Shown here: positions 1 to 25,105 of the stretch, piece by piece
Position numbering within the stretch: position 1 is the stretch's first letter
Layout of the letters: every line of letters starts with the position of its first letter
Program-made: the position numbers and the translations under genes
Notes under the pieces: generated by a model
Database searches by the model: none
Told to the model about the DNA's origin: nothing
Seen by the model: only the letters and a program-made list of their open reading frames with translations
Source: Chitinimonas sp. BJYL2
GTDB taxonomy: Bacteria; Pseudomonadota; Gammaproteobacteria; Burkholderiales; Chitinimonadaceae
Assembly: GCF_027257935.1 (NCBI RefSeq)
Contig: NZ_JANZKW010000004.1
Coordinates: forward strand, 124,001-188,000
Length of the DNA: 64,000 nucleotides
Direction of reading: 5' to 3'

Positions 1-442
1 CTTGCGGCACCGGGTCGGCCTGCTGGCGGCGGCTGGCGGCATCGCCCCCGGCACTGATCTGCCAGGCAATGCGCTGGCCGGTGTAACGCTGCAGGGTGGC
101 GGCGTTTTTGGCTGCATACACGGGCGAGCCCCACGCGGCTTCAAACTCGGTGAGCAGCGTGAGCTTGCGGGTATCGCGCGCCAGATAGCCGGTCACGATC
201 CAGCTCTCTTCCCCGGCGGGATCATGCGGAATCTGGATGCCGTCAAACCCGGCCAGCTCGGCCGCGCGGGCCACCTGGTGCAGGTAATCAAAATGGTTGA
301 ACCGCTCGCCGCGCGGGTCGCTGACGCCTTTACCCAGCGGCGATGGCGCACCGGCATCGCGCTCGCCACGGCGAACAATGGCGCTGGTGCCCGGCCGTAC
401 ATCGCCCGCCGTTGGCACCTGCCAGAAAAATTGCAAAGACAT
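1..442 (-). CDS. SsuD-like LLM flavin monooxygenase (partial, 3' end off window)
   Basis: The 147 visible codons start with MSLQFFWQVPTAGD and continue through FNHFDYLHQVARAAE, AGFDGIQIPHDP and the LTLLTEFEAAWGSPVYAAKNAATLQ segment. This is the N-terminal half of the SsuD alkanesulfonate monooxygenase branch of the bacterial luciferase-like family. Such enzymes use FMNH2 and O2 to cleave a C-S bond and release sulfite in the cytoplasm. The ATG at 442 has a GGGAG-type ribosome binding site. The gene is divergent from the DszA-like gene at 786 and has its own sigma-54 promoter at 488-503. The substrate is not known, and the C-terminal half lies outside the window. Confidence 0.85.
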   Translation of the reverse strand, partial: MSLQFFWQVPTAGDVRPGTSAIVRRGERDAGAPSPLGKGVSDPRGERFNHFDYLHQVARAAELAGFDGIQIPHDPAGEESWIVTGYLARDTRKLTLLTEFEAAWGSPVYAAKNAATLQRYTGQRIAWQISAGGDAASRRQQADPVPQ

Positions 443-487
443 GGTCACTCCCAGCCATCAAGGCTTGCTGTGTGGTGAGCCAGACTT

Positions 488-503
488 TGCAGAATCCGTG
501 CCG
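488..503 (-). promoter_or_regulatory. sigma-54 promoter of the SsuD-like gene
   Basis: On the minus strand this reads CGGCACG-GATT-CTGCA, with the GG and GC elements exactly 10 bases apart. It lies about 46 bases before the ATG at 442, a spacing suited to a sigma-54 start site. Confidence 0.7.
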
Positions 504-635
504 TCCGAGTCGGTGGGCAACAAGAGGCTGCGCAAACCCTTGTGGCAGCAGCGTCGGTGCATGCCAACCGCGCGGCGGCGGTGCGGTTTGATCGCTCAAT
601 CGATGCTGGAAACGCCAACACCTTGCTGCGCGGGC

Positions 636-651
636 TGCTGGGTTTTCAGCA
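636..651. promoter_or_regulatory. candidate SfnR upstream activator site
   Basis: Perfect palindrome TGCTG-GGTTTT-CAGCA between the two divergent sigma-54 promoters. It is 65 bp before the -24 element of the promoter at 717 and about 130 bp from the one at 488-503. A near-identical site is at 5277-5292 and related ones at 22831-22881. Assignment to SfnR is inferred from position. Confidence 0.5.
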
Positions 652-716
652 TCCCGGGCCGGGGCCCGTCCACGCCAAACCCCGTGGCAGCAAGGGTTGA
701 TGGCTGCGGGAGCGCG

Positions 717-732
717 TGGCATGGAATCTGCA
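717..732 (+). promoter_or_regulatory. sigma-54 promoter of DszA-like gene 1
   Basis: TGGCATG-GAAT-CTGCA with GG-N10-GC spacing, 54 bases before the ATG at 786. Confidence 0.75.
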
Positions 733-785
733 AAACACCGGGCCATTGCATCCACTTAGCGATGCCACCAACCGGAACCCGCACC

Positions 786-2150
786 ATGAGCCAACGCCGC
801 CGACAACTCGCCCTCAATGCCTTCTTCATGCGCTTTGGCCACCACCCGGCCGCCTGGCGTCACGCCAGCCAGCGCGATAGCGGCCGCCCCGATGCGGCTT
901 ACTGGATCCGCATGGCGCAGCTGGCCGAACAAGGGAAATTCGATACCTTCTTCCTGGCCGACTTTATCGGCCGCAGCGGCGATGGCCTGGCCGGCAGCAG
1001 CCGCGCCGGCATCAGCTTCCAGTTCGAGCCGTTCACGCTGCTCTCCGCCATTGCTACCCAAACCCGCCACATCGGCCTGGTGGCCACGGTGAACACCAAC
1101 TTCACCCATCCGTACAACGTGGCGCGGCAGTTTGCCTCGCTCGACCATATCAGCGGCGGCCGCGCGGGCTGGAATGTGGTGTCCTCGTTCAACCCCAGCA
1201 CCGGCAAGAACTTTGGCCTGCCCACCCCATCGCGCGAGGAACGCTACGGCCGCGCGGCCGAGTTCCTCACGCTGAGCAAGCAGCTATGGGATAGCTGGGA
1301 CGACGAAGCGTTTGATCACCCCAACCGCCAGACCGGCCAGTTCTTTGATCCGCGCCACGCGCACCCGGTGCAACACCAGGGCGACTACTTCCACGCCGAG
1401 GGCCTGCTGGATGTGGCCCGCCCGATCCAGGGTTACCCGGTGATCGTGCAGGCCGGCAACTCGGAACAAGGCAAGGAGTTCTGCGCCGAACACGCCGAAA
1501 TGACCTATTGCTCGGCACAAAGCATCGACGTGGGCCAGGCCTACTATCGCGATGTGAAAAGCCGCATGGCCAAGTTCGGCCGCGACCCGGATGAACTGTT
1601 CGTCACCCCCGGCCTCTCGGTAGTGGTGCGCGAAAGCGCGCAGGAAGCGCGCGAGATTTTCGAAGAACTGCAAAACGCGGTGGATTTCAGCCGTGGCGTG
1701 CAGCTAATGGGCCTGGACGTGAGCGGCCTGCCGCTCGACGAGCCGCTACCGGCCGACCTGACGCCCTATTTGGGCAAGAGCGACAACGGCGTCGGCCGCA
1801 CCCAGCAACTGATCGAGCTGGCCCGCCGCGAAAACCTCACCATCCGCCAACTGGCACTGCGCTTCAGCGTGGCCAAGGGGCATATCCAGGTCGTGGGCTC
1901 GCCCACCGAGGTGGCCGATACCATCCAGGAATGGTTCGAAGGCCATGCGGCCGATGGCTTCAATGTGGTGCCGCCGTTGCTGCCCAGTGGCTTTGAGGAT
2001 TTTGTGACGCTAGTCGTACCGGAGCTGCAGCGTCGTGGTTTGTTCCGCAAGGAATATACGGGTAAGACTTATCGGGAGAATTTGGGGTTGCGGACGCCGG
2101 GGAATCAGCACGCGAGCGTCCTTGCCAAAGATGAGGCTATTGCCGTCTGA
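786..2150 (+). CDS. DszA/NtaA-family FMN-dependent monooxygenase 1
   Basis: A 454-residue protein of the NtaA/SnaA/DszA branch of luciferase-like monooxygenases. Family hallmarks include FFMRFGHHPAAWR at the N-terminus, a KFDTFFLADF segment, HIGLVATVNTNFTHPYNVARQFASLDH, SGGRAGWNVVSS and GYPVIVQAGNS, ending with a typical VPELQRRGLFRKEYTG tail. Length fits the family (about 440-460). These enzymes use FMNH2 from a separate reductase (SsuE-type, 8062 or 22105) to oxidise sulfones, nitrilotriacetate and similar compounds. The open frame extends far upstream, but the ATG at 786 matches the family start and follows the sigma-54 promoter. It probably feeds the DszB-like enzyme at 4013. The true substrate is unknown. 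Confidence 0.88.
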   Translation: MSQRRRQLALNAFFMRFGHHPAAWRHASQRDSGRPDAAYWIRMAQLAEQGKFDTFFLADFIGRSGDGLAGSSRAGISFQFEPFTLLSAIATQTRHIGLVATVNTNFTHPYNVARQFASLDHISGGRAGWNVVSSFNPSTGKNFGLPTPSREERYGRAAEFLTLSKQLWDSWDDEAFDHPNRQTGQFFDPRHAHPVQHQGDYFHAEGLLDVARPIQGYPVIVQAGNSEQGKEFCAEHAEMTYCSAQSIDVGQAYYRDVKSRMAKFGRDPDELFVTPGLSVVVRESAQEAREIFEELQNAVDFSRGVQLMGLDVSGLPLDEPLPADLTPYLGKSDNGVGRTQQLIELARRENLTIRQLALRFSVAKGHIQVVGSPTEVADTIQEWFEGHAADGFNVVPPLLPSGFEDFVTLVVPELQRRGLFRKEYTGKTYRENLGLRTPGNQHASVLAKDEAIAV

Positions 2151-2297: not shown

Positions 2298-3860
2298 ATT
2301 TAGTCCAACCTACTATCGACTTTACATTCGATACCATTATCTAAGAGGACTTTACCAAAAGCTTCAGCGTACGCTTTTTTAGGCTCGATAGATTGTATAT
2401 CCCAATCGTCATCCTTGCTTGGTGTCGGTCGGGCGGGCACAGCCCATCCGGATTTATAATTTTTCCGGCCTATCCCATTGTCCTTCAGCCACTTCGCCAT
2501 ACCATGCCTAGTGTCTGAAACAATAACCCAAGCGAAACCACACATGCCTGCGAATATTGGCGGACTGTCACTTAGAGTCATAGGTATTGGAGTGCATAAA
2601 TGTGCTGCTTTCTCTCCTGCCTCATGCGCTCTACGATATATATCGGCCCACTTGGCATCACCAATTAATTCTGGGGGTGCGATGTTTTGTAGTGGCGCCT
2701 CAAGATCTGCATCAACAGGCTCTGAGTGAGGATACGCTGTCACAAGTCGTGGAGGCTCTCCACTTTTAACCATCCAACCTGTTTGGATTATCGCCGTTCG
2801 ATCATTACGACCCCGGATCTCTATAAGAGCACCATAATTTATTCCGAAATTACTGTTTTTTACGCGAAATATTAAGGCCTTGGACATGGCCCCCGATATT
2901 TGATCAGATAGATACTTCCAGTCATTTCGTGTGATACCCAGAGACTCTGTAAAAAATTTTGCTTTGGGGGCGCCATCGGGGTGCTCTGGATTGAGAAGAT
3001 AATTTCTAACTTTATTTTCATCGCATTGAAAATCCAATTTTTCAGCGTTCTCTCCTGCATAGAATTCTACCCCTTCGACATCTGGATTTTTTTGCAAGTA
3101 ATCTAGAATCGCGACGGCTAGTTGCTGCCGGTGGTCTAGTTTTGACTTGCCTTCTAATCGAGATGCGGATAATAGCCCCCGTTTAGATGGTTGGCTCATT
3201 TTTAGTGATGGAGGTGAGTTCGCATGGAATACTTCTGGATCAACTAGTATCGGCTTGGAGTTGGCACCATATGAGTCTGCAATGGATTTGCCTACCTCGC
3301 GATCATAATCACTCCTGCAATACAAATTGCCGTCTTCAATATATGCGCCATCAATTAATGAAAAAAGCTTTATGTGTATTGGGTTGCCCGTATCTATCCG
3401 GGTGGCGCCAAGATAAGGGCTAAACGATTTTGTTTGGTTGTCGATTGCCTCGGCGGCTTCTTGCGTTATGGAAGGAAGAACAATAGTCCATATAGACTTT
3501 CTTGCTAGTTCAAATGGAAATTCTATGGTGTTAACGGTATGCCAGTCATCGCTCAATGACTCTGCAAAGTCACATAGTATTAGCTTGTACAGTCCCATGT
3601 CCGCAGACATGCTTTGGCTAATAAACCTGGAATTTTTAACAGGAGAAACTTCTGTAGATACTGAGCTGATTTTATAGGCCATCAAGTGCGGCAATAAATC
3701 GCCGCGTAAAACTTGACTCTTTATTCCCAAGTCACGGTGTTGGGCCGACGAAACAATCTTCGACGTGCATGGAGGACCGTAAAAAACACCCAGCTCTGGG
3801 TGATTTGCATTAAAAAAGAATGCATACGCTCTGTGCTTTGCCTGCATCTCGAATGCCTAA
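2208..3860 (-). mobile_element. solitary integron gene cassette
   Basis: The unit runs on the minus strand from a GTTAGGC junction (3861-3855) through one gene to the G of GTTAGGC in the attC (2208), giving 1,653 bp. The gene is clearly AT-richer than its neighbours. Removing the cassette leaves ACACG joined to TTAGGC, so the target itself carried a GTTAGGC core. It interrupts the space between the DszA-like and DszB-like genes. Confidence 0.85.
2300..3847 (-). CDS. cassette-borne DUF6883 fusion protein of unknown function
   Basis: A 515-residue soluble protein with no signal peptide. Residues about 1-215 match nothing I recognise. Residues about 270-375 look like DUF6883 (YLLNPEHPDGAPKAKFF, then an ILIFRVKN-like strand and PPRLVTAYP), a small domain often seen with toxins and phage proteins. 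Residues about 395-515 (AHEAGEKAA, CGFAWVIV, AKWLKDNGIGRKNY, KKAYAEAFGKVL, DSRLD) resemble a domain common in phage and bacterial hypothetical proteins. Start is the ATG at 3847, 13 bases inside the cassette boundary. Composition differs strongly from the flanking sulfur genes, consistent with acquisition. A role in phage-host or toxin biology is only a guess. Confidence 0.75.
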   Translation of the reverse strand: MQAKHRAYAFFFNANHPELGVFYGPPCTSKIVSSAQHRDLGIKSQVLRGDLLPHLMAYKISSVSTEVSPVKNSRFISQSMSADMGLYKLILCDFAESLSDDWHTVNTIEFPFELARKSIWTIVLPSITQEAAEAIDNQTKSFSPYLGATRIDTGNPIHIKLFSLIDGAYIEDGNLYCRSDYDREVGKSIADSYGANSKPILVDPEVFHANSPPSLKMSQPSKRGLLSASRLEGKSKLDHRQQLAVAILDYLQKNPDVEGVEFYAGENAEKLDFQCDENKVRNYLLNPEHPDGAPKAKFFTESLGITRNDWKYLSDQISGAMSKALIFRVKNSNFGINYGALIEIRGRNDRTAIIQTGWMVKSGEPPRLVTAYPHSEPVDADLEAPLQNIAPPELIGDAKWADIYRRAHEAGEKAAHLCTPIPMTLSDSPPIFAGMCGFAWVIVSDTRHGMAKWLKDNGIGRKNYKSGWAVPARPTPSKDDDWDIQSIEPKKAYAEAFGKVLLDNGIECKVDSRLD

Positions 3861-4012: not shown

Positions 4013-5065
4013 TCAAGCCGCCAACTTCCTCCGCTCCGCCAGCACCTCGGCCAGCGGCTGCGGATCAATCCACGCACGCACATCAAAGTCTGCCGGGATG
4101 TAGCCGTGGGCCAGCAGGAAGTCCTTGTAGTTGCTCAGTGCATCAATCGCCCAGGCATCCAAGGTGGTGCCTTGGTGCAGATGGGCGTCGCGGCCGTAGG
4201 CGGCGCGGACCCATTCGTCGGTGCTGCCTGATTCGCTGGCGATGAAGGCGATGGTTTCGGCCGGGTGGGCGGCGGACCAGTCGGCGATATCGACGATGCG
4301 GTTGAGGAAGCGCTTGACCAGATCGGGGCGCTTTTCCAGCAGGGCGCGGTCGACGGTGATGGGGCGCGGGGCGCCGTTGTTCGCGCGCACGGCCGGATCG
4401 GGGTGCTGGCGGATGTCGTAGACCAGGTGGGTGCCGCTGGTGTGGTGGGTTTCGAGGCCACGGGCGCCTTTAACGAACACGGCATCCACGTCGCCACGTT
4501 GCAGCGCTTCGATCACGGCGTTGTAACCGCCACCGCGACGGCCACCGCCGCCGGTGGAGGCCGGCAGGCCCGGTTGGCCGGCGTCGATGTTCACAAAGGT
4601 GGCATCGGCCTCGGTGAGCCCGCCGACTTGCAGGGTAACGGCAAAGCCGCGTTCGGCACCGGCACGGCCGTGATCGATACTGTTGTGGTGCACGGGCAGG
4701 CCCAGGCGTTTGCCCTTGAGGTCGGCCGGGGTTTTGATGCCCGAATTCGGCAGACTGAGGATGCCCTGGAATTCATCGATCCAGTTCAGGCCGATCACCA
4801 CCGTATCGGCACCGCGCGACTTGGCCCAGATGGCGGGCACGTTGCCGCCCTGGCGGAAGGAGTTTTGCAGGTGGTGGTCGTAGTGCGATTCGCGCAGGGC
4901 CGGGTCGTTGGTTTCTTGCAGAGTCTGGATGGCGATTTGCTCGGGGGCGAACTCTTCGCGGAACCAGCCCAGTTGGGCAGCGAGGCCCAGCGGGGTGGGC
5001 ACGGGGCAGCGGGTGTACCAGATTTCGTTGACGGCCTGTTGGTTGGCGGCTTGCTGGGTAGTCAT
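4013..5065 (-). CDS. DszB-like putative desulfinase 1 (SBP fold, no signal peptide)
   Basis: A 350-residue protein with the periplasmic-binding-protein fold of the SsuA/DszB group but no signal peptide or lipobox, so it should be cytoplasmic. The N-terminal YTRCPVP aligns with SNCPVP of DszB, placing Cys20 at the catalytic cysteine. His61, Arg71 and Gly74 reproduce the His60-Arg70-Gly73 spacing of DszB exactly. Later segments include NVPAIWAKS, GADTVVIGLNW, IKTPADLKGKRLGLP, and RPITVDRALLEKRPDLVKRF. DszB releases sulfite from an aromatic sulfinate, and a DszA-like enzyme is encoded close by. A generic annotation would call it an ABC substrate-binding protein; the catalytic residues argue for an enzyme. 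A sigma-54 promoter lies at 5161-5176. Confidence 0.75.
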   Translation of the reverse strand: MTTQQAANQQAVNEIWYTRCPVPTPLGLAAQLGWFREEFAPEQIAIQTLQETNDPALRESHYDHHLQNSFRQGGNVPAIWAKSRGADTVVIGLNWIDEFQGILSLPNSGIKTPADLKGKRLGLPVHHNSIDHGRAGAERGFAVTLQVGGLTEADATFVNIDAGQPGLPASTGGGGRRGGGYNAVIEALQRGDVDAVFVKGARGLETHHTSGTHLVYDIRQHPDPAVRANNGAPRPITVDRALLEKRPDLVKRFLNRIVDIADWSAAHPAETIAFIASESGSTDEWVRAAYGRDAHLHQGTTLDAWAIDALSNYKDFLLAHGYIPADFDVRAWIDPQPLAEVLAERRKLAA

Positions 5066-5160: not shown

Positions 5161-5176
5161 AGCATGGGTTGTGCCA
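5161..5176 (-). promoter_or_regulatory. sigma-54 promoter of DszB-like gene 1
   Basis: Minus strand TGGCACA-ACCC-ATGCT with GG-N10-GC spacing, 96 bases before the ATG at 5065. Confidence 0.72.
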
Positions 5177-5276: not shown

Positions 5277-5292
5277 TGCTGGCTTTTCAGCA
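5277..5292. promoter_or_regulatory. candidate SfnR upstream activator site
   Basis: TGCTG-GCTTTT-CAGCA, a perfect palindrome differing by one spacer base from the site at 636-651. It lies between two divergent sigma-54 promoters, about 100 bp from 5161-5176 and 157 bp from 5449-5464. The rest of the 450-bp gap (5066-5515) shows no gene. Confidence 0.5.
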
Positions 5293-5448: not shown

Positions 5449-5464
5449 TGGCACGCCGGCTGCT
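5449..5464 (+). promoter_or_regulatory. sigma-54 promoter of the TonB-dependent receptor gene
   Basis: TGGCACG-CCGG-CTGCT, a full -24 consensus with GG-N10-GC spacing, 52 bases before the ATG at 5516. Confidence 0.8.
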
Positions 5465-5515: not shown

Positions 5516-7873
5516 ATGGCTTTCCCGCTTTCTCCTCTTTCCCGCGCTGTGATCATTGCACTGGGTGCTTTGTCGCTCACGCCTTCGGCCTATGCCGATA
5601 CCCCCGCGGCCGATGCCGCCACCGAAGCCACCACGGCCGAATCCCAAACCGGCGCACAAGCCGAAGTGAGCGATCTGGGCAGCGTGGTGGTGACCGCTCA
5701 ACGTCGCAGCCAAAAGCTGCAGGATGTTCCCGTGCCCATCACCGCCATCAGCGGTGATGCGGTGCGCGACAAACAGATTGTGTCGTCGGCCGATGTAGAA
5801 CGGCTGGCACCGAACCTGTCGGGCCAGGCCACGGGCGGGCGCTCGGCCAAGCCGCGCTGGTTCTTGCGTGGCATTGGTACCAACGACCCGAACAACAACC
5901 AGGAAGGCCCGCTGGGCATTTACGTGGATGAGGTGGTGATCGGCCTGCAAACCAACCAGAACTTCCCCGTGTTTGATCTGGAGCGTGTGGAAGTGCTGCG
6001 CGGCCCGCAAGGCACCTTGTGGGGCAAGAACAATACGGGCGGCGCGATTCACTACATCAGCCGCAAGCCGCAGTTCAACAAGGAAGGCTACTTCCGCGTG
6101 GGTGCGGGCAACTACGGCACGCGTAATCTGGAGGCCGCGGGCAATAGCGAGCTGGTCAGCGAAACCGTGGCCGTGCGCGGCTCGGTGAGCTACGAAAAGC
6201 TCGATGGCTGGGCGCGCAATGTGGTGAATGACGATTACGGCCCCAAGCTCGAAGACTTTGCGGCCCGCGTGCAGTTGCTGGCCAATCTGGGCAATGGCGC
6301 AGATTTGCTGGTGAGCCTGCGCACCCGCCAGCGCGATGGCGGCAACCTGCCCGGTTATCTGGTGGGTGCCACCAGCGTGAACAATGTCACCACGCCTAAT
6401 GCTGACGGTGCCATCAAGCAAGGCGGCGGCAGCTACATTCCGCCTTATGGCGCCAACCCCAGCACCACCAGCGATTTCTGGGCGGGCGAAGGGAACAACG
6501 AACAGCAGAACCACGGCGGCACGATCAAGCTTAACTTCAAGCTGGGCGCCAACACCCTCACCGCGATCAGCGCGCGTGATTATGGCGATAGCGATGCCTA
6601 CAGCAGCGTAGGCGTGCCCGCCAACACGGTGATCGACCGCAACAGCACGCTCACCACCACCAGCTTCAGTCAGACCACACACGAGCTGCGCCTCACCTCG
6701 CCGGCTACCGGCCGCCTGAGCTGGATTCTGGGTGCTTACCGCTTTGACCAGCGTGCCGACAACTACGGCCAGACCGCGCGCTTTGCGGCCGGCACCACGA
6801 CCGAGCAGTACACCAGCAGCTCGTGGCTGCAAAACTCGCAAAGCACGGCGGTATTCGGCAACTTCCGTTTCAATATCGACGCGAAGAACGCCACCACGCT
6901 GGGCCTGCGCCAGACCAATGAGAAGAAGGACATCACCGAAACCACGCTGACGGCCACCGATACCGCCGCCAACAAGGGCATCGTGGATTTCCCCATCGCC
7001 AACGCCTGGTGGCAGGCCGGTGGCACTACGGGTACGGGCATTGTTGCGCCGCTCACGCTGTTCAAGGCCAACAAGGCCAACAAGTTCACCTGGGATCTGA
7101 CGCAGGAACACCGCGTATCGCCTACCTTGCTGGCCTTTGGCCGCGTAGCGACGGGTTTCCGCTCGGGCGGTTTCAATCAGTCCATCGTCAACGGCGCCAT
7201 CATCGAAACCCAGCCCGAAACGCTCACCGATTACGAGCTGGGCATCAAATCGAGCTGGCTCGATGGCAAGGTCACCGCCAACGCCGCGCTGTTCTACTAC
7301 GACATCAAAGACCTGCAACTGAACATCCAGCAGCAGGTGCCCGGCACCACCACAACCAGCGCCGCCGGCAGCTCGGACGGCAATATCAAGGGCTTTGAGC
7401 TGGAGCTGGACACGCAGATTACTGATCGCCTGCGCGTGAGCAATGCGCTGGGCCTGCTGCGCTCGGAATACACCAACTTCATCTACAAGGTAGGCCCGAC
7501 CACGCTGGACGCCAGCGGCAACGAGTTCTACCGCACACCCAAAGTGTCGTACCGGCTGGATGTGGATTACCGCGTACCGCTGGCAGGCGGCTACCAGCTC
7601 ACGCTGGGTAGCGACTGGTCGTACCGCAGCCACATCTTCCACAACGCTACGGTGCAAACCGACCCGAACCAGGAAACCCCGGCTTACTGGAACGGCAATG
7701 CCCGCGTGAGCCTGCAAAGCCCCAACAAGAGCTGGTCGGCCAATCTGTACGTCACCAACATCACTGATCAGAGCCAGAAGGTGCTTTCGCAGATCGTGAA
7801 TCAGCGTGGCGTGTACCCCACCAACTTTGCCCAGCCGCGCCGCTACGGCATCAACTTCACCACTCGCTGGTGA
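5516..7873 (+). CDS. TonB-dependent outer membrane receptor
   Basis: A 785-residue outer membrane receptor. Residues 1-28 form a signal peptide ending in SAYADT. A TonB-box-like stretch (GSVVVTAQRR) follows, then the plug domain (LQDVPVPITAISG, PRWFLRGIG, VFDLERVEVLRGPQGTLWGKNNTGGAIHY), and the remainder is a beta-barrel ending in the expected aromatic residue (FTTRW). It is divergent from DszB-like gene 1 and under a strong sigma-54 promoter, so it probably imports an organosulfur compound under sulfur starvation, powered by the TonB at 23057. The ligand cannot be read from the sequence. Confidence 0.9.
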   Translation: MAFPLSPLSRAVIIALGALSLTPSAYADTPAADAATEATTAESQTGAQAEVSDLGSVVVTAQRRSQKLQDVPVPITAISGDAVRDKQIVSSADVERLAPNLSGQATGGRSAKPRWFLRGIGTNDPNNNQEGPLGIYVDEVVIGLQTNQNFPVFDLERVEVLRGPQGTLWGKNNTGGAIHYISRKPQFNKEGYFRVGAGNYGTRNLEAAGNSELVSETVAVRGSVSYEKLDGWARNVVNDDYGPKLEDFAARVQLLANLGNGADLLVSLRTRQRDGGNLPGYLVGATSVNNVTTPNADGAIKQGGGSYIPPYGANPSTTSDFWAGEGNNEQQNHGGTIKLNFKLGANTLTAISARDYGDSDAYSSVGVPANTVIDRNSTLTTTSFSQTTHELRLTSPATGRLSWILGAYRFDQRADNYGQTARFAAGTTTEQYTSSSWLQNSQSTAVFGNFRFNIDAKNATTLGLRQTNEKKDITETTLTATDTAANKGIVDFPIANAWWQAGGTTGTGIVAPLTLFKANKANKFTWDLTQEHRVSPTLLAFGRVATGFRSGGFNQSIVNGAIIETQPETLTDYELGIKSSWLDGKVTANAALFYYDIKDLQLNIQQQVPGTTTTSAAGSSDGNIKGFELELDTQITDRLRVSNALGLLRSEYTNFIYKVGPTTLDASGNEFYRTPKVSYRLDVDYRVPLAGGYQLTLGSDWSYRSHIFHNATVQTDPNQETPAYWNGNARVSLQSPNKSWSANLYVTNITDQSQKVLSQIVNQRGVYPTNFAQPRRYGINFTTRW

Positions 7874-8683: not shown

Positions 8684-8902
8684 ATGAGCAAGATCAGCTC
8701 CATCAACCCCCGCAACCAGTTCCGTGGCCGCGTGGCCGAAATCCTCGAAGGCGACATCCTCTCGGAAGTGGATGTACAAACGCCCTCGGGCGTGGTCACC
8801 TCGGTCATCACCACGCGCTCGCTCAAGCAGCTGGAGTTGCAAGTGGGCAGCGAGGTGATTGCCTTTGTGAAAGCGACGGAAGTCTCGATCGCCAAGCTGT
8901 AA
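8684..8902 (+). CDS. ssuF: SsuF, Mop/TOBE-domain molybdopterin-binding-like protein
   Basis: A 72-residue protein consisting of a single Mop (TOBE) domain: SSINPRNQFRGRVAEILEGDILSEVDVQTPSGVVTSVIT, then QLELQVGSEVIAFVKATEVSIAKL. In Pseudomonas putida the ssu operon ends in ssuF, a protein of this size and type needed for use of sulfonates and sulfate esters. Its position right after ssuE supports the same identity. A good AAGGA site precedes the ATG at 8684. What it binds in this role is not established. Confidence 0.85.
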   Translation: MSKISSINPRNQFRGRVAEILEGDILSEVDVQTPSGVVTSVITTRSLKQLELQVGSEVIAFVKATEVSIAKL

Positions 8903-17547: not shown

Positions 17548-18701
17548 GCCCTGCCCTCCGCGTCGTCGTGATCAAGCCGGTGATCGAGCGCGTTGCGCAG
17601 CGCTTCGCCCATGAAGGTCAGCAGCAGCAGCGTGATGACCAGCACGCCAAAGCCCGAGACGGCAATCCACCAGGCATCGAGGTTTTCTTTGCCCTGTTGC
17701 AGCAAGTGGCCAAGGCTCGGTGCCGGCGCGGTGACGCCCAAACCCAGAAAGTCCAGGCTCGCCAAAGCCATGATGGCGGCGCTCATGCGGAACGGCAGGA
17801 AGGTGATCACCGGGGTGAGGCTGTTGGGCAGGATGTGCCGCCAGATGATCTGCCAGTGCGACAAGCCCATGGCGCGCGCGGCCTTCACATATTCGAGCTG
17901 GCGGTTGCGCAGGAACTCGGCGCGCACGTAGTCGGAAAGGTGTATCCAGCCGAACAGCGACAGCAGACCGAACAGCAGCAGGAAGCTGTGCTCGAAGATC
18001 GAGGCAAAGATGATCAGCAGGTACAGCTCGGGCATCGCGCCCCAGACTTCGATCAGCCGCTGCGCGAACAGATCGACACGACCGGCGAAGTAGCCCTGCA
18101 CGGCACCGATGGCGATGCCCAACAGGGTGCCGACCAGCGTCAGCCCTAGTGCAAAGGTGACGGAAGTGCGAAAGCCATACAGCAAGCGCGCGGTGATGTC
18201 GTAGCCCGCGATATCGGTACCCAGCCAGTTCTCGGCACTGGGCGGGCCGGGGTAATGGTGGGCAGTCGAGAAGTAGTTGAGCGTGTCGTAGTAGTAGCCA
18301 TTGGGCGGATACAGCGCAAAGTTGCCCGGTTTGGCCAGCTGCTCGCGGATGAACGGATCGTGGTAATCGGCCGCGATCGGCAACTGTCCGCCGAACACGG
18401 ATTCCGGGTAGTCCTGCAAGAGCGGGAAGAACCATTGCTGCTCGTAGCGCACCACCAACGGTTTGTCGTTGCTGAGCAGCTCGCCAGCCAGGCTGGTGAC
18501 ATACAGGGCCACGAACAGGATCAGGCTCCAGTAGCCCAAGCGGCTGCGCTTGAAACGTAGCCAGATGCGCCGGCCCGGCGATATGGCCTTGGCCGGTGCC
18601 GGTTCGGGACGCGCTGCATCGGCGGGCTGCCCCGTTTCCGGACCGGTCTGCGGGGATAGCGGCAATATCGGGGGGACAGGGGGATGGGTAACGGTTGTCA
18701 T
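17544..18701 (-). CDS. yejE: ABC transporter permease, YejE type
   Basis: A 385-residue inner membrane permease. TM1 (about 40-60) precedes a large periplasmic loop typical of YejE (FGGQLPIAADYHDPFIREQL, NGYYYDTLNYFSTAHHYPGPPS, NWLGTDIAGYDITARLLYG), followed by the BPD_transp_1 domain with the EAA loop around YVKAARAMGLSHWQIIWRHILPN. The ATG at 18701 is preferred because GAGGTG just upstream is a good ribosome binding site; an ATG at 18713 is the alternative. It follows yejB directly. Confidence 0.92.
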   Translation of the reverse strand: MTTVTHPPVPPILPLSPQTGPETGQPADAARPEPAPAKAISPGRRIWLRFKRSRLGYWSLILFVALYVTSLAGELLSNDKPLVVRYEQQWFFPLLQDYPESVFGGQLPIAADYHDPFIREQLAKPGNFALYPPNGYYYDTLNYFSTAHHYPGPPSAENWLGTDIAGYDITARLLYGFRTSVTFALGLTLVGTLLGIAIGAVQGYFAGRVDLFAQRLIEVWGAMPELYLLIIFASIFEHSFLLLFGLLSLFGWIHLSDYVRAEFLRNRQLEYVKAARAMGLSHWQIIWRHILPNSLTPVITFLPFRMSAAIMALASLDFLGLGVTAPAPSLGHLLQQGKENLDAWWIAVSGFGVLVITLLLLTFMGEALRNALDHRLDHDDAEGRA

Positions 18702-18702
18702 C

Positions 18703-19764
18703 TCACACCTCATGGGCTTCGTACTTGATGCGGGGGTCCACCAGCACGTAGGCGATATCGCCTACCAGCTTGGTCAGGAGCCCGATCAGGGTGAACAGGT
18801 ACAGCGTGCCGAGCACCACCGGGTAATCACGGGTGTTGATCGACTCGAACGACAGCAAGCCCAGGCCATCGAGCGAGAACAGGGTCTCGATCAGCAGGCT
18901 GCCGGTGAAGAAGGCGGCGATGAAGGTAGCCGGGAAGCCCGTTACCAGCGGCAGCAGCGCATTGCGGAACACGTGCTTCCACAGTACCTGGCGCTCGCTC
19001 AGGCCTTTGGCGCGGGCGGTGAGCACGTACTGGCGGCGGATTTCTTCGAGGAAGGTGTTTTTGGTCAGCAGGGTCTTCATCGCAAAGCTGCTGACCACGG
19101 CGGCGGTGACCGGCAGCGCCACGTGCCACAGGTAATCGCCCACCTTGCCTGCCAGCGAGAGTTCATCCCAATCGCTCGATGTGAGGCCACGCAGCGGGAA
19201 TACATCCCAGAACGAACCGCCACCGAACAGCACGATCAGCAATACGCCCAGCACAAAGCCCGGAATCGCGTAGCCGATGAGGATCAGGATGCTGGTGATC
19301 AGATCGAATGGCGTGCCGGCGCGCACGGCCTTGGCCACGCCCAGCGGAACCGAAATCAGATAGGTGAACAGAAAGGTCCAGACGCCTAGCGAGACCGACA
19401 CGATGAGCTTTTCCTGGATCAGCTCGATGACCTTCTGGTTGCGGAAGTAGCTCTCGCCCAGATCGAACCGCAGGTAGCTGCCCAGCATCTGCACATAGCG
19501 CTCGTGCAAGGGCTTATCAAAGCCGTAGGCCGTGCGTAGCTGCTCGACCTGCTTGTCGTCCACGCCTTCACGACCGGCGTAGCCCCAGCCACCACTGCTG
19601 CCGGCGGCATCGGTGCCGGTGCGGGCGCTTTCGCCATCGATCTGCGCCAGCGCCTGCTCGACTGGACCACCGGGAACGAACTGGGTAATCAGGAAGGTCA
19701 GCGTCAGCACCCCCAGCAAGGTGGGGATCAGGATCAGCAGACGTTTGATGAGGTAAATCCACAT
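18703..19764 (-). CDS. yejB: ABC transporter permease, YejB type
   Basis: A 353-residue permease, first gene of the importer operon. It starts MWIYLIKRLLILIPTLLGVLTLTFLITQFVPGGP, the usual N-terminus of DppB/YejB permeases. A loop containing GGWGYAGREGVDDKQVEQLRTAYGFDKPL follows, as in YejB, then the five-helix permease core with EAA loop VLTARAKGLSERQVLWKHVFRNALLP. A sigma-54 promoter lies at 19826-19841, which should drive the whole run to the DszA-like gene at 10683. Confidence 0.93.
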   Translation of the reverse strand: MWIYLIKRLLILIPTLLGVLTLTFLITQFVPGGPVEQALAQIDGESARTGTDAAGSSGGWGYAGREGVDDKQVEQLRTAYGFDKPLHERYVQMLGSYLRFDLGESYFRNQKVIELIQEKLIVSVSLGVWTFLFTYLISVPLGVAKAVRAGTPFDLITSILILIGYAIPGFVLGVLLIVLFGGGSFWDVFPLRGLTSSDWDELSLAGKVGDYLWHVALPVTAAVVSSFAMKTLLTKNTFLEEIRRQYVLTARAKGLSERQVLWKHVFRNALLPLVTGFPATFIAAFFTGSLLIETLFSLDGLGLLSFESINTRDYPVVLGTLYLFTLIGLLTKLVGDIAYVLVDPRIKYEAHEV

Positions 19765-19825: not shown

Positions 19826-19841
19826 TGCGATAAGCGTGCCA
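19826..19841 (-). promoter_or_regulatory. sigma-54 promoter of the yejBEFA operon
   Basis: Minus strand TGGCACG-CTTA-TCGCA, a full -24 consensus with GG-N10-GC spacing, 62 bases before the ATG at 19764. Confidence 0.78.
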
Positions 19842-19943
19842 CCTACAGAAAAACCAGTTTTCTCCTTTATTTTCAATGGCATGTGATCAACACACCGCGC
19901 ACAGCAGCAGCGTGGATTGTTGCAATTCAAACAGCGCGAGCAA

Positions 19944-20027
19944 CGCGTAGGGTGCAATAAGCGCAGCGCATTGCACCGATGGTGCAATGGTGCAATGCGG
20001 CCTTTGGGCCTTATTGCACCCTACGCG
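19944..20027. repeat. 84-bp palindromic repeat element with 18-bp terminal inverted repeats
   Basis: Bounded by CGCGTAGGGTGCAATAAG and its perfect inverse, with internal GCATTGCACC/GGTGCAATGC repeats. It resembles dispersed GGTGCAATAAG-type intergenic elements of proteobacteria. It sits in the 342-bp gap between the aldolase-like gene and yejB, upstream of the sigma-54 promoter. Confidence 0.8.
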
Positions 20028-20042
20028 GCCGCCCCGCCCATG

Positions 20043-20106: not shown

Positions 20107-20781
20107 TCAGCCTACGTAACCCTTGGCCTTGACGATATCGAGCAGGCCCGTGCGCTTCCATTGCAGATCGAGCGCACCCTCGGTGTACTCCTTGGCACCA
20201 CCGAGCTGTTCGGCAATGGCCTGGTAACGGGCGGCCTCTTCAATGAACAGGATGTTCTGCGCCGTCTTGAGAATGCCGCGGCCCCAGAAATTGGCACCGC
20301 CATTGCTCTCCAGCAGTGCCGGTGGCGGGGCAAGTTCGGGGTGATTGTCGAGACGCTCGCGGATCACATCGAGCACGCTGCGCTTGCGTTCGAGATGGTT
20401 GGGAATCTCGCGCGCCAGCAGGTGACGCTGGGCGGCTACGTACAAGATGGGAAACGGCTTGTGCGCCAGCGACCAAGCCGACAGAAAGTTGGTGTGGGCG
20501 TGGATCAGCGTATCGGCATCGAGGCGCTCTTCGTGCAGCACGTTCTGTGGCTGGTCTTCAAAACCGGTGATGCGGAAACTCGGCGTGCGGTTGCGCTCCC
20601 AGGGCTGCGGGAATCGGATATGCAGTAGCTTGTCGTGGCCCGGAATCTTGTGGGTGACATGAAAGGTCCAGCTGGCCGACAGGGTCTGCGTTTCGCGCAG
20701 GAAGTCGAAGGCGTGGATGGCGTCCTGCTTGGCTTCGTCCACATAGGAAATCAGGTCAATCTCGGTCAGTGCGTCAGACAT
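20107..20781 (-). CDS. class II aldolase/adducin-like protein
   Basis: A 224-residue soluble protein. The central LIHAHTNFLSAWSLAHKPFPI carries the HxH metal-ligand pair of class II aldolases, preceded by HEE. The later NGGANFWGRGILKTAQNILFIEEAARYQAIAEQLGG corresponds to the family's conserved C-terminal helices, but the usual third histidine is replaced by an Asn/Ala stretch. Class II aldolases cleave sugar phosphates, and some degrade sulfur-containing sugars. It follows DszB-like gene 2 by 38 bases and is probably co-transcribed with it. Reaction and substrate are unknown. Confidence 0.65.
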   Translation of the reverse strand: MSDALTEIDLISYVDEAKQDAIHAFDFLRETQTLSASWTFHVTHKIPGHDKLLHIRFPQPWERNRTPSFRITGFEDQPQNVLHEERLDADTLIHAHTNFLSAWSLAHKPFPILYVAAQRHLLAREIPNHLERKRSVLDVIRERLDNHPELAPPPALLESNGGANFWGRGILKTAQNILFIEEAARYQAIAEQLGGAKEYTEGALDLQWKRTGLLDIVKAKGYVG

Positions 20782-20819: not shown

Positions 20820-21905
20820 TCAGGCGGCGCGTTGCAAAGCGTTCGAGTTGCCGGGCCAGACATCGCGTTCATTGGCGACCAGTGCACGGGCTTCAGCGAG
20901 TGGCTCGGGGTCGATCCAGTCCTGGATGTCGAAATCACGGGCGAGGTAGCCCCAATCGCGCAGGAAGTTCTTCTGGGTCTCCAGACCCAGCAGGTAATCG
21001 GGTGTGAGCTGCGGCGTGAACGAGAGGTAGACGCCGGGGCCGTGCGAGGCGAACACGTCATCGCGGGTGGCACCGCCGCTTTCGGGAATCAGCAGGTCAG
21101 CAACTTCATTACGGTGCAGCGCGGCCCAGCGCGCGGTGCGCAGCAGAACCGACAGGTAGCGCACGACCACATCGTGATGCGTTTCCAGGAAGGCGCGATC
21201 TACCGTGATGGGGCGCGGGACGCCATTGCCCACACGCTTGAGCGGGTCGCCCAGTTCGTTGAGGTTGATGATCTGGCGGTACTTGGGATCACGCGAGGCG
21301 CGGAAACCGCGGGCAAAGCGGATGAATACGGCGTCGACCTCACCGGCATCGAGTGCAGCCAGCACGTGATCGCGCGCTTGCGGCACACGGGCACGGCGCG
21401 GGCCGTCCTCGTCGTCGTAGGCGGGCGCTTCGATATCAACCAGCGTTACATCGCTGACGCTCAGGCCGGCCTCTGCCAGCGCATGCACATAGCCGTGCTG
21501 GGCAGCACCGCGCTGGAAGTCGATCAAGGAACCGCGGTGCAAGGGCACGGCCAGACGCTTGCCGCGCAGATCTGCCACGGTGTGCAGATCGCTGTCGGCA
21601 CGCACCAGCACGCCTTGGTATTCATCGAGCCAGGTAATGCCCAGCACCACCGTATCGGCACCACCGGCCTTGGCCCAGATTGGCGGAATGTTGCCGCCCT
21701 CACGGAACAAGCCACTGAGGCCGTGGTGGTAATGCGCGTTGCGGATAGCCAGCTCGGGCGAATCGCGCAGCGATTGCAGCTGCGTGTCTGGCGTGCTGAA
21801 TGCGTCTTGCAACCAGCCCTGGCGGATAGCCAGCCCGGATGCCGTGGCGGCGCCACAGCGGGTGTACCAGAGCTTGGTCGGTGTAGCGGTGGATGAGACG
21901 GACAT
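20820..21905 (-). CDS. DszB-like putative desulfinase 2 (SBP fold, no signal peptide)
   Basis: A 361-residue paralogue of the protein at 4013. It lacks a signal peptide and keeps the DszB active-site pattern: Cys17 in YTRCGAAT, His58 in NAHYHHGL, Arg68 and Gly71 in FREGGN, with His-Arg and Arg-Gly spacing equal to DszB. Shared blocks include NIPPIWAKAGGADTVVLGI, RGKRLAVPLHRGS, DAVFIRFARG and RPITVDRAFLE. The ATG at 21905 has an AAGGA site; the frame extends 27 codons further but without support. A sigma-54 promoter lies 55-70 bases upstream. A cytoplasmic C-S lyase working after a flavin monooxygenase is the best inference. Confidence 0.75.
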   Translation of the reverse strand: MSVSSTATPTKLWYTRCGAATASGLAIRQGWLQDAFSTPDTQLQSLRDSPELAIRNAHYHHGLSGLFREGGNIPPIWAKAGGADTVVLGITWLDEYQGVLVRADSDLHTVADLRGKRLAVPLHRGSLIDFQRGAAQHGYVHALAEAGLSVSDVTLVDIEAPAYDDEDGPRRARVPQARDHVLAALDAGEVDAVFIRFARGFRASRDPKYRQIINLNELGDPLKRVGNGVPRPITVDRAFLETHHDVVVRYLSVLLRTARWAALHRNEVADLLIPESGGATRDDVFASHGPGVYLSFTPQLTPDYLLGLETQKNFLRDWGYLARDFDIQDWIDPEPLAEARALVANERDVWPGNSNALQRAA

Positions 21906-21959: not shown

Positions 21960-21975
21960 AGCAGCCTCTGTGCCA
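21960..21975 (-). promoter_or_regulatory. sigma-54 promoter of DszB-like gene 2
   Basis: Minus strand TGGCACA-GAGG-CTGCT with GG-N10-GC spacing, 55 bases before the ATG at 21905. Confidence 0.75.
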
Positions 21976-22104: not shown

Positions 22105-22701
22105 TCAAGCAGCTGTAGCAAGGGGCGCACCGGCCAGAACTGCATCACGCAGTTGCAGCAAGCCGGCATGCAGGGCTGCGCGCCGGGTGGGATCGAGCAG
22201 ATTGCCCTCCGCATCCAGCGCAGACTCGGCACGCGGCAAGGTAAACGTATCGGGCAACACCTGGACCTTGAGATTGGTGAGCAGCTGAGCCAGATGGCGC
22301 AGGCCACGCCCGCCACCGGACTCGCCACGGGTGGCGCTGAGCAGATAGGCCGACTTGCCGAGGAAAGCGGCGCGAGGCGGCTCATCGCCCTGACGGCGGG
22401 AGGCCCAGTCGAGCGCGTTCTTGAGCAAGGGCGAAGGGAATCCGTTGTACTCCGGCGAGGCAATCACCAGCGCGTCGTGAGTGAACAACAGACTACGCAG
22501 GGTTTTTACCCCTAGTGGCAAGCCATGCTCGGTTTCCAGATCCCCGTGATAGAGCGGGATATCCAAGCCACCCAGATTGACCCAGGTAGCCTGCGCACCG
22601 GATTGATTTAGCAAGGCGGCCGCTTGGCGACTCAATCCCTGGTTGTAGGAATCGCGGCGGGCACTGCCACTGAAAACGAGAATGCGCGGGGTCTGGCTCA
22701 T
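22105..22701 (-). CDS. NAD(P)H-dependent FMN reductase 2
   Basis: A 198-residue flavodoxin-like reductase of the NADPH_FMN_red family, distinct from SsuE. It begins RILVFSGSARRDSYNQGLSRQAA (FMN phosphate loop) and has DALVIASPEYNGFPSPLLKNALDWASR, the chromate/azo reductase-type signature, and SATRGESGGGRGLRHL. The ATG at 22701 has an AAGGAG site. Its own sigma-54 promoter is at 22741-22756. It probably supplies reduced flavin to the DszA-like or SsuD-like monooxygenases when sulfur is limiting. Confidence 0.88.
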   Translation of the reverse strand: MSQTPRILVFSGSARRDSYNQGLSRQAAALLNQSGAQATWVNLGGLDIPLYHGDLETEHGLPLGVKTLRSLLFTHDALVIASPEYNGFPSPLLKNALDWASRRQGDEPPRAAFLGKSAYLLSATRGESGGGRGLRHLAQLLTNLKVQVLPDTFTLPRAESALDAEGNLLDPTRRAALHAGLLQLRDAVLAGAPLATAA

Positions 22702-22740: not shown

Positions 22741-22756
22741 AGCACCTTGCATGCCA
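22741..22756 (-). promoter_or_regulatory. sigma-54 promoter of FMN reductase 2
   Basis: Minus strand TGGCATG-CAAG-GTGCT with GG-N10-GC spacing, 40 bases before the ATG at 22701. Confidence 0.68.
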
Positions 22757-22830: not shown

Positions 22831-22881
22831 TGCTGCGCATGCAGCAACCCCGTCGCGTCGGATGCTGCTTTTGCATCAGCA
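22831..22881. promoter_or_regulatory. two candidate SfnR activator sites
   Basis: TGCTG-CGCATG-CAGCA (22831-22846) and TGCTT-TTGCAT-CAGCA (22866-22881) lie between the divergent sigma-54 promoters at 22741-22756 and 22990-23005, 75-145 bp from each. They match the palindrome at 636-651 and 5277-5292. No gene is seen in the 355-bp gap. Confidence 0.5.
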
Positions 22882-22989
22882 ACCCCCTGAGTTTTCGCGA
22901 TCCTCCAGCGTCGCCATTCGCCAATCGCCCACCGCCATGCCGCGTCAATGCTGGACATCATACGTATCTCCGCGGTGAGTTCTGATCAG

Positions 22990-23005
22990 TGGCACGGTCT
23001 CTGCT
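22990..23005 (+). promoter_or_regulatory. sigma-54 promoter of tonB
   Basis: TGGCACG-GTCT-CTGCT, full -24 consensus and GG-N10-GC spacing, 52 bases before the ATG at 23057. Confidence 0.78.
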
Positions 23006-23056
23006 GATTGGTTGGCAAAGCAACGTGCGTTGCCCGTCATTCTGAAAGGAACCACC

Positions 23057-23827
23057 ATGTCTGCTCTCGCCGCCAGCGCGCTCGATGTATCCCATAGCAG
23101 CCGCCGTGCCTTGCGCCGCGCACCACAAGTTCGCCAACTCACACTAGTGAGCAGCACGCCGCACCCGCTCGCCCCCGCCGAACTGATTCGATTGAGCGTC
23201 TCCCGACCTGCGATCCGCAAACACCACTGGATTGCAATTGGCAGCGTGGTGCTCGCGGTGCACGCGCTGTTTGCCTGGCGGCTGAGCCAATCTCATCCGA
23301 CTGATGCACCGCCCAAGGCACTCAAACCCGTCACCGTGGAGTTTGCCAAACCGGTCATCGAGGAATTGCCACCACCCAAGCCGGCCGAGCCGCCGCCACC
23401 TCGTGCTCAGAAAGCACTGCCCAAAGCCGAGTCAGTGCCGGCCAATACCCCGGTGGTCGCGATCCCGGTTGATGACAAGCTCCCGGTGAGTGATGCCCCT
23501 GCGGCTATCGTGCCGCCCGCTCCCCCACCACCAGCGCCAGTGGAGAAGGTGACAGAACCGTTCGGTAAAGCAGGCTATCTGAACAACCCGGCGCCGGAAT
23601 ATCCCGAGTTCGCCCAATCGCAAGGCTGGGAAGGCAAGGTGGTACTGCGCGTACGCGTGCTGGCCACAGGCAAGGTCGATGCGCTGGAGATTCAGCAATC
23701 AAGCGGTCGCAAACTGCTCGATGACGCCGCGAGCAAGGCGATCAAGGGTTGGACCTTTGCGCCGGCAAAGCGTGGCCAGACGCCGATTGATGGCTGGGCG
23801 ACCGTGCCTATCGTGTTCCGTCTGTAA
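23057..23827 (+). CDS. tonB: TonB energy-transducing protein
   Basis: A 256-residue TonB. A cytoplasmic head precedes one membrane helix (about residues 57-75, WIAIGSVVLAVHALFAWRL). A long proline-rich periplasmic linker (PKPAEPPPP, PAPPPPAPVEK) leads to the C-terminal TonB domain (PAPEYPEFAQSQGWEGKVVLRVRVLATGKVDALEIQQSSGRKLLDDAASKAIKGWTF). The ATG at 23057 follows a GAAAGGA site. No exbB/exbD are adjacent. The sigma-54 promoter suggests a dedicated TonB for the receptor at 5516. Confidence 0.92.
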   Translation: MSALAASALDVSHSSRRALRRAPQVRQLTLVSSTPHPLAPAELIRLSVSRPAIRKHHWIAIGSVVLAVHALFAWRLSQSHPTDAPPKALKPVTVEFAKPVIEELPPPKPAEPPPPRAQKALPKAESVPANTPVVAIPVDDKLPVSDAPAAIVPPAPPPPAPVEKVTEPFGKAGYLNNPAPEYPEFAQSQGWEGKVVLRVRVLATGKVDALEIQQSSGRKLLDDAASKAIKGWTFAPAKRGQTPIDGWATVPIVFRL

Positions 23828-23851
23828 ACCGCTTCGGTCGAATGTGCCGCC

Positions 23852-23876
23852 ATCGCCCGCGTTGATCGCGGGCGAT
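23852..23876 (+). terminator. Rho-independent terminator of tonB
   Basis: Stem ATCGCCCGCG/CGCGGGCGAT with a short loop, followed by CTTGTTTTG, 25 bases past the stop codon. Confidence 0.8.
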
Positions 23877-24010
23877 CTTGTTTTGGGAAGTGGCTATTCT
23901 TTATATTTCTTTTTGTTTGTTTATTCTTATTTGTAATTCTTTTTAGAGATATAAAGTCAGGCGTACATTGCGCTCAACGATCTCTGACCCACCGCTTCCT
24001 GGAGTGCACC

Positions 24011-25105
24011 ATGCTCAGCCAAACCGCCGGAAAGCCCGCCCTGATCTCGCTGGAGGGCTACAACTCGCAACCCACCTCCATCCGCGCCAAAGCGCTGGTG
24101 TTTGCCGATCCGGCATCGCAGCAGTTGCTGAGCCAGATGGAGCAACTCGGGCCCAGCGAAGCACCGATACTCATCATCGGCGAAACCGGCACTGGCAAGG
24201 AACTGGTGGCGCGGCATCTGCACCACCTGAGCGGCCGATCGGGCCCGTTTGTGGCGGTGAATTGCGGCGCCATCAGTGAGCAACTGGCCGAGAGTGAACT
24301 GTTCGGTCATGAGGCCGGCGCCTTCACCGGGGCCACCGCACGCCGTGCGGGCTGGTTTGAAGCCGCAGATGGCGGCACGCTGTTCCTCGACGAAATCGGC
24401 GATCTGCCGCTCAATCTGCAAGTCAAACTGCTGCGTGTACTGCAAGAGCGCGAAGTCGTCCGTGTCGGCGCCCGTCGCCCCATCCCGGTAGATATCCGCC
24501 TGGTAGCCGCCACCAACGTGGACCTGCACGAAGCCGTATCGGCCGGGCATTTCCGGCTCGATCTGTACTACCGCCTCAATATCGCCCAGCTGAATCTGCC
24601 ACCGCTGCGCGACCGCGTGGGCGATATCCTGCCCTTGGCCGAATACTTTCTGGGTCTGTATGCGCAGCGCCTGAAGCGCCCGCTGCCCACGCTGCACGCC
24701 GATACCATCATCGCCCTGCAACGCTACCCCTGGCCCGGCAACATCCGCGAGCTGGAAAACGTGGTGCATTACGCGCTACTGGTGAGTTTTGGCCAGCAGA
24801 TCCTGCCCAAGCATCTGAAGCTCAGCGGCGGCATGCCCACCAGCGGCAGTAGCGCACTCGACAGCCCGATCACGCGCATTCAGGCCGCGTACCAAGAGCT
24901 GTTCCGGGATAAAACCCCTGACCTCTTCCAGCAGCTCGAACAATTGCTGATCGAAGAAGCATTCGCCTACAGCGGCCAGAATCAAGTCCGAGCCGCTGCG
25001 TTGCTGGGTATCACCAGAAACGTAATGAGAACCCAACTGAAGCGCTATGGCCTGCTTGGCGAAAGCGAAGAGATAGGAAGCGAGTCAATAAAAGCTTATG
25101 GCTAG
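24011..25105 (+). CDS. sfnR: sigma-54-dependent activator, SfnR type
   Basis: A 364-residue enhancer-binding protein with a short N-terminus and no receiver or GAF domain. The AAA+ domain has Walker A GETGTGKE (57-64), the sigma-54 contact loop GAFTGA (about 103-108), Walker [11 protein letters not shown] (122-131) and the [17 protein letters not shown] region. A Fis-type helix-turn-helix ends the protein ([26 protein letters not shown]). This architecture is that of SfnR, which activates dimethyl sulfone genes in pseudomonads. The eight sigma-54 promoters in the island make it their likely activator. Its own upstream region is AT-rich with no GG-N10-GC element. GGAG precedes the ATG. Confidence 0.88.

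Follow-up and report, generated by a model that had tools for sequence, protein, structure and literature searches.

A putative SfnR-type sigma-54 regulon for organosulfur scavenging in Chitinimonas sp. BJYL2, with enhancer palindromes upstream of most of its promoters

The first 25 kb of a 64-kb stretch of the Chitinimonas sp. BJYL2 genome (positions 124,001-188,000 of contig NZ_JANZKW010000004.1 in a genome of 3.45 Mb; the whole stretch is called the window below) form an island of genes for flavin-dependent monooxygenases, DszB-like proteins, flavin mononucleotide (FMN) reductases and transport proteins that closes with the gene of a sigma-54 activator resembling SfnR. This island very probably constitutes one organosulfur-scavenging regulon of the SfnR type, judging from two elements that recur in it, namely -24/-12 promoters of the sigma-54 class and a palindrome, TGYTG-N6-CARCA, upstream of most of them. 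Genes, promoters and palindromes were observed directly in the window, as were the association of palindrome and promoter across other genomes and the membership of the activator in a family of SfnR-like proteins.

The initial annotation had placed GG-N10-GC sites before eight genes (ssuD-like, dszA1, dszB1, receptor, yejB, dszB2, fmn2 and tonB), and all eight were found, 41-97 bases from the start codons (Table 1). The core pattern GG-N10-GC is present in each, the ssuD-like promoter having CGGCAC and that of yejB ending in CGC. The comparison with shuffled sequence that had been proposed as a check and named as a possible refutation gave no excess, however: with up to two mismatches to TGGCACRN4TTGC the window contains 61 matches and 62.4 are expected, so that the raw count is at chance level and weighs against a regulon. 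Since the raw count is uninformative, position and enhancer were tested instead. When scored with a matrix that follows the published consensus, 8 of the 22 matches of at least 11.8 in the window are located on the correct strand and no more than 100 bases ahead of an island gene, and with starts read by hand every head of a sulfur-gene unit (8/8) has a promoter of at least 11.8 within 100 bases. None of 30 control genes (automatic picks of open reading frames (ORFs) that begin with ATG and encode at least 150 amino acids, from 25.2-64 kb of the window) has such a site within 125 bases upstream, the best score being 7.9, and the DUF6883 gene, the chemotaxis receptor gene and the activator gene are without such a promoter (0.8, 0.8 and 2.2). 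In the automatic ORF list of the island 4 of 17 ORFs score above 11.8; in this list the starts of dszA1 and fmn2 are mis-set and the receptor is replaced by an antisense ORF. The eight sites are set apart by position, not by number. The equality of the raw count with its expectation favors the view that the -24/-12 matches are chance products of GC-rich DNA and that control is exerted by sigma-70 with CysB/Cbl-type regulators; the position and orientation of the sites, together with the enhancer association in other genomes and the whole-genome pairing of palindromes with promoters (both described below), make this view extremely improbable.

At seven of the eight promoters the centre of a palindrome lies 73-164 bases upstream; six of these have exact palindromes and yejB has one with a single mismatch. 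Its form TGCTG-N6-CAGCA is present in all three divergent intergenic regions of the island promoters; an earlier expression that included flanking bases had matched two of the eight upstream regions, and was replaced by this better core. In a search with an enhancer matrix built from 37 sites in 24 loci of other genomes, five of the top seven matches in the 64 kb lie before island promoters, and the yejB enhancer (Table 1) exceeds 15.5, the 99th percentile for blocks taken between 26 and 64 kb. The spacing of the two enhancers between fmn2 and tonB is seen elsewhere, with tandem enhancers 31-33 bases apart at loci L019, L023, L048, L067 and L068, and would allow two dimers to sit on the same face of the DNA. 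The best matrix match of the 64-kb window, with a score of 22.9, is at 51963-51990, some 125 bases ahead of the start of a porin gene (near 52115).

In the whole genome the core TGCTG-N6-CAGCA occurs at 39 places (3 for a reversed control), the relaxed palindrome at 48 (8 for its reversed control) and TGGCAYRN5TGC at 61 (46 for its control). The palindrome core alone is thus common and hence unspecific, and only its pairing with a promoter is specific: the 48 palindromes and 61 sites pair five times at 30-300 bases, always in the island, with 0.23 pairs expected. As both patterns were derived from the island, the informative part of this result lies in the palindromes elsewhere; no TGGCAYN6TGC site directed away from the palindrome lies within 260 bases of any of the 42 that are located beyond the window and the flank to its left, and two of the 42 have any site of at least 11.5, which is the chance level (7% of blocks). 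In the left flank itself (L012:8838-8853) a palindrome is followed 114 bases on by a GG-N10-GC site, TGGCACTCTTCGTGC, that precedes ExbB/TolQ-, ExbD/TolR-, MFS, rhodanese and YedE-like genes, probably one operon (palindrome, site and genes span L012:8838-13721). This site is probably a ninth promoter, by which the regulon would extend to the left of the window, although its score of 10.6 is below the 11.5 threshold that two of the 42 other palindromes pass by chance. The proteins of its first two genes match the MotA_ExbB and ExbD families, with TolQ/TolR models outscoring those of ExbB/ExbD and all remaining under their cut-offs; the genome has six MotA_ExbB genes.

The motif had been noticed in the window first and was then tested in other genomes, from which 56 relatives of the activator were taken. 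Strict sigma-54 sites (TGGCAYN6TGC) number 74 in 47 locus pieces of these relatives, and TGYTG-N6-CARCA lies 30-260 bases upstream of 30 of them and downstream of one, while the remaining 12 spacer lengths between 0 and 12 gave 0-7 upstream matches among the same 74 sites and, at control loci with other activators, the palindrome was found at 0 of 14 strict sites. This test left out L014 (a duplicate of L083/L084), L085 and L087. A looser count, in which L014 was kept, gave the palindrome with at most one mismatch at 53 of the 490 loosely defined sigma-54 sites of family loci and at 0 of the 89 of control loci. The palindrome also precedes Pseudomonas msuE (L079). SfnG gave no match, at the threshold set, in six genomes of relatives; in a sample of 25 Pseudomonas genomes (the genus of L028) sfnG is present in 14, and at 12 of the 14 loci there is a sigma-54-like site and TGYTG-N6-CARCA begins 99-103 bases upstream of it, as counted with a slightly looser promoter pattern and without a separate control. 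Because it is present before both sfnG and msuE of Pseudomonas, the palindrome appears to belong with SfnR and not with other activators; SfnR reportedly controls sfnFG.

Several of these counts tell against the proposed regulon. Palindromes are missing at 44 of the 74 strict sites in the relatives (some of these 44 are probably chance matches) and at two of the 14 sfnG loci (L137 and L146); the 14 sfnG genomes all belong to one genus and so are not independent; and with up to two mismatches the contrast between family and control loci shrinks to 171/490 and 15/89. In the window, the strong palindrome at 51963 is without a strict sigma-54 site, and the two palindromes that the window has besides those of the island (43966 and 51969) have no strict promoter either.

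Promoter and palindrome occur together at 38 places elsewhere, of which 36 gave an ORF (automatic picks); all 36 ORFs were compared by BLAST with the proteins of the island and of msu, and 20 were scanned with Pfam. The BLAST comparison identified DszB-like proteins (L013 twice, L025, L047), an SsuD-like protein (L047), MsuC and MsuD (L033), MsuE (L079), TonB receptors (L068, L081) and TonB (L081), and the Pfam scan identified TauD (L037), ExbD (L042), a rhodanese (L081) and binding proteins of the NMT1 and SBP_bac_11 families (L030, L023, L038, L066). A role confined to sulfur is less easily reconciled with the GntR regulator, BadF-type ATPase, nitroreductase and porin, which are not plainly products of sulfur genes, with the PSCyt2/PSD1 proteins behind such promoters at L022, L024 and L026, or with the 3 of 20 scanned ORFs that have no Pfam family. 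The PSCyt2/PSD1 (DUF1549/DUF1553) genes lie near an SfnR-like activator at these three loci, all in Betaproteobacteria, and at L022 and L026 the gene is divergent from that of a small, apparently secreted protein. At L048:11400-13589 a protein combining a pyruvate kinase barrel, PUA_2 and ATP-sulfurylase is encoded behind a sigma-54 promoter with two enhancers.

The activator has 364 amino acids, with an AAA+ domain and lid at 31-270 and a helix-turn-helix (HTH) of the HTH_8 family at 308-346; no receiver or sensor domain was found by Pfam, and no SfnR model is among the matches listed (25 of 30 NCBIfam matches). Its gene is patchy in its family and genus, with a match of E 1e-100 or better in four of ten genomes of the family (its own included) and two of seven of the genus. 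As reference SfnR we used the activator adjoining the msuE-msuD-msuC operon of Pseudomonas delhiensis (L079), located through an msuE above the model cut-off, to which the window activator is 54% identical. In a tree of 48 rows (gathered by likeness to the window protein, rooted at the midpoint and including some long branches) 46 SfnR-like proteins form one branch (100/97) apart from L001 and L002, two of the genome's own activators; not included in the tree were 15 loci whose activators are more distant (L050-L052, L054-L065), the own activators L003, L005 and L006, and the duplicates L004, L072, L075-L078 and L084. The window activator falls in a clade of seven rows (99/94) with L080, L013, L043, L016, L082 and L014. 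L079 is in a separate clade of 13 rows (95/89), which places the activator outside the Pseudomonas SfnR clade and counts against a simple equation with SfnR. The designation as an SfnR-type activator in the initial annotation therefore holds for membership in the SfnR-like family and not for orthology with Pseudomonas SfnR, given the identity and the different clade. The HTH of the family is strongly conserved (NQV-x-TA-x-LLGISRNVLRT). In seven activators with Arg after NQV the third base of the half-site is C in 22 cases and T in 4, and in 19 activators with His, Gln or Ala it is C in 22 and T in 34; this association was drawn post hoc, from related sequences and only from those rows that have one or more sites, and that the residue after NQV sets the preference for the third half-site base is offered as a proposal only. 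In the window activator this residue is Arg327.

Two further explanations were weighed against the preferred one. The promoters might be sigma-54 dependent and yet be driven by another enhancer-binding protein (for example of the NtrC type), the adjacent activator serving other genes. The genome does offer candidates, as the sigma-54 activator domain is matched 11 times in it, in seven cases (the window activator included) with E below 1e-49; but the palindrome is tied to the loci of this family and absent from strict sites at control activators, it precedes sfnG and msuE in Pseudomonas, and the palindrome-promoter pairs are confined to the block and its left flank, so that control by another activator is very unlikely. 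A partial regulon, limited to the palindrome-bearing units (ssuD, dszA1, dszB1, receptor, yej, fmn2, tonB and exbB-like) with dszB2 and the aldolase gene served by another activator or a distant enhancer, is also unlikely, though less so. It draws on the fact that dszB2 is without a recognisable enhancer, its best matrix score never exceeding 2.1, which is likewise a point against one coherent regulon; dszB2 nevertheless has a good -24/-12 site and is separated by about 0.9 kb from the enhancers of fmn2/tonB, a distance over which sigma-54 activators are able to act. The claim that the whole block is one sulfur-starvation unit is supported, with corrections. Sigma-54 promoters with an SfnR-type activator remain the best reading of it, in view of the family-specific enhancer and of an rpoN gene (one in the genome), whereas dszB2 stands without an enhancer, the chemotaxis receptor and DUF6883 genes lie inside the block without such a promoter, and the unit probably continues to the left through the ExbB/TolQ-, ExbD/TolR-, MFS, rhodanese, YedE-like and second SsuD-like genes.

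Binding, activation, control by sulfur starvation, operon structure and substrates we infer from the sequence. In the proposed mechanism of the SfnR-type regulon, a dimer of the activator would bind TGYTG-N6-CARCA upstream of the -24/-12 promoters, and its AAA+ ring would open the RpoN-RNA polymerase complex there. The three palindromes in divergent intergenic regions would each serve two promoters and a fourth the yej operon, and the candidate ninth promoter outside the window would serve the ExbB/TolQ- and ExbD/TolR-like operon. As the activator has no recognised sensor, control is probably exerted on its expression or amount, by analogy with SfnR of Pseudomonas, which is said to be controlled by CysB. 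The outer-membrane receptor and TonB, perhaps with an energiser of their own, and the Yej-type importer would bring in the substrate, which the two-component flavin monooxygenases with their FMN reductases would oxidise, and the DszB-type desulfinases would then release sulfite.

The genes to which these roles are assigned are listed in Table 1. The first ssuD-like gene extends past the window edge and is followed, outside the window, by a second; at the other end the activator gene is followed by that of aconitase B. The product of dszA1 matches YtnJ (1tvl) and DszA/BdsA (5tlc). Both DszB-like proteins also match an SsuA-family model, yet under its cut-off. In copy 1, Cys, His and Arg are aligned with those of DszB (2de2; the 2de3 chain has Ser in place of the Cys), and in copy 2 His and Arg are kept and a Cys is aligned with that of copy 1; these we take to be the active-site residues of DszB. 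Because no SsuB/SsuC transporter was found beside them, among the window proteins scanned with family models, the pair is better read as putative desulfinases than as transport proteins.

Table 1. Genes, sigma-54 promoters and enhancer palindromes of the island (window coordinates).
Feature	Position	Strand	Evidence
ssuD-like FMNH2-dependent monooxygenase 1	1-442	-	TIGR03565 E 8e-49, 166.5 bits; curated cut-off 518 not reached
dszA-like/NtaA-family FMN monooxygenase 1 (dszA1)	786-2150	+	TIGR03860 508 bits, cut-off 279.7 (scored with longer ORF, 297-2147)
dszB-like desulfinase 1 (dszB1)	4013-5065	-	matches DszB 2de2, E 8e-9
TonB-dependent outer-membrane receptor	5516-7873	+	Plug domain E 7.6e-16
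SsuE FMN reductase	8062-8655	+	TIGR03567 238 bits, above cut-off 164
Mop/TOBE small protein	8684-8902	+	family scan
dszA-like/NtaA-family monooxygenase 2	10683-12023	-	TIGR03860 529 bits
MsbA-like ABC exporter	12225-13979	-	family scan, under MsbA cut-off
family 5 solute-binding protein, Yej-type importer	14033-15916	-	SBP_bac_5
YejF-like ATPase	15916-17547	-	631 bits, under YejF cut-off 834
YejE-like permease	17544-18713	-	366 bits, under cut-off 439
YejB permease	18703-19764	-	NF011712 468 bits, above cut-off 445
class II aldolase-like protein	20107-20781	-	family scan
dszB-like desulfinase 2 (dszB2)	20820-21905	-	matches DszB 2de2; 40% identity to copy 1
FMN reductase 2 (fmn2)	22105-22701	-	FMN_red E 6e-36
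TonB	23057-23827	+	family scan
SfnR-type sigma-54 activator	24011-25105	+	AAA+ domain and Fis-type HTH
promoter of ssuD-like operon	489-503	-	CGGCACGGATTCTGC, score 13.1, 47 bases from start codon
promoter of dszA1	717-731	+	TGGCATGGAATCTGC, score 16.0, 56 bases from start (counted to 787; ATG itself at 786)
promoter of dszB1	5162-5176	-	TGGCACAACCCATGC, score 14.0, 97 bases from start codon
promoter of receptor	5449-5463	+	TGGCACGCCGGCTGC, score 14.4, 53 bases from start codon
promoter of yej operon	19827-19841	-	TGGCACGCTTATCGC, score 13.8, 63 bases from start codon
promoter of dszB2	21961-21975	-	TGGCACAGAGGCTGC, score 14.0, 56 bases from start codon
promoter of fmn2	22742-22756	-	TGGCATGCAAGGTGC, score 11.8, 41 bases from start codon
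promoter of tonB	22990-23004	+	TGGCACGGTCTCTGC, score 16.6, 53 bases from start codon
palindrome TGCTG-N6-CAGCA, common to ssuD-like and dszA1	636-651	.	motif search and matrix
enhancer palindrome, common to dszB1 and receptor	5277-5292	.	motif search and matrix
yejB enhancer, TGTTGCAATTCAAACA, one core mismatch	19918-19933	.	score 17.2, third in 64 kb
enhancer palindrome 1, common to fmn2 and tonB	22831-22846	.	motif search and matrix
enhancer 2 of fmn2/tonB region, one core mismatch	22863-22878	.	score 16.8; 32 bases from enhancer 1

The type of system is known, and its gene set, its shared divergent enhancers and its extension by TonB and Yej genes make the island a variant of it. The regulon of Pseudomonas SfnR reportedly comprises sfnFG, sfnA and msuEDC-sfnR. 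The island shares with it a receiver-less sigma-54 activator, the class and spacing of the palindrome, and flavin monooxygenases and FMN reductases as targets; it differs in having DszA/DszB-type and Yej/TonB genes, in the sharing of enhancers by divergent promoters, in half-sites that are mostly TGCTG and not TGTTG, and in the clade of its activator. Searched with MsuC of L079, neither the window nor L012 gave a match, and none of the scanned proteins attains the cut-off for SfnG. DszA- and DszB-like proteins, the latter with the Cys, His and Arg of DszB kept, are common to the island and the dsz genes of dibenzothiophene desulfurisation, whereas the presence of two copies of each and of sigma-54 promoters is not; a search with MsuC, which is related to DszC, found no DszC-like gene in either the window or L012. 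SsuD and SsuE serve the use of sulfonate sulfur, and the ssu/tau regulons are under CysB/Cbl control of the sigma-70/LysR type; SsuD- and SsuE-like proteins are present in the island as well, but SsuB/SsuC are absent from its scanned proteins and its promoters are of the sigma-54 class instead. Titles and abstracts from a literature search contain no SfnR binding sequence, which may be published.

The combination of promoter and family-specific enhancer is a two-part signature for which any genome can be scanned in search of organosulfur genes, and could reach many genes annotated merely as those of transporters or hypothetical proteins. It suggests that the organosulfur response can also include TonB receptors, Yej-type importers and those DszB-like proteins that resemble sulfonate-binding proteins. 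More tentatively, and with somewhat less than even confidence, it is conceivable that SfnR-like activators share one ancient organosulfur-scavenging code across Pseudomonadota and Myxococcota, in which the TGYTG-N6-CARCA enhancer is read by an HTH of the NQV(R/H/Q) type, Arg being associated with C and His/Gln more often with T at the third base, and lineage-specific gene sets are attached to it; here the code would govern an island complete in itself, which may include a TonB energiser of its own for the import of a large organosulfur compound.

Two features of the island were noted by eye. The DUF6883-domain gene between dszA1 and dszB1 (2300-3847) is AT-richer and appears inserted, and the intergenic segment upstream of yejB (19947-20030) contains repeats of the type GTGCAATAAGCGCAGCGCATTGCACC that resemble an interspersed palindromic repeat.

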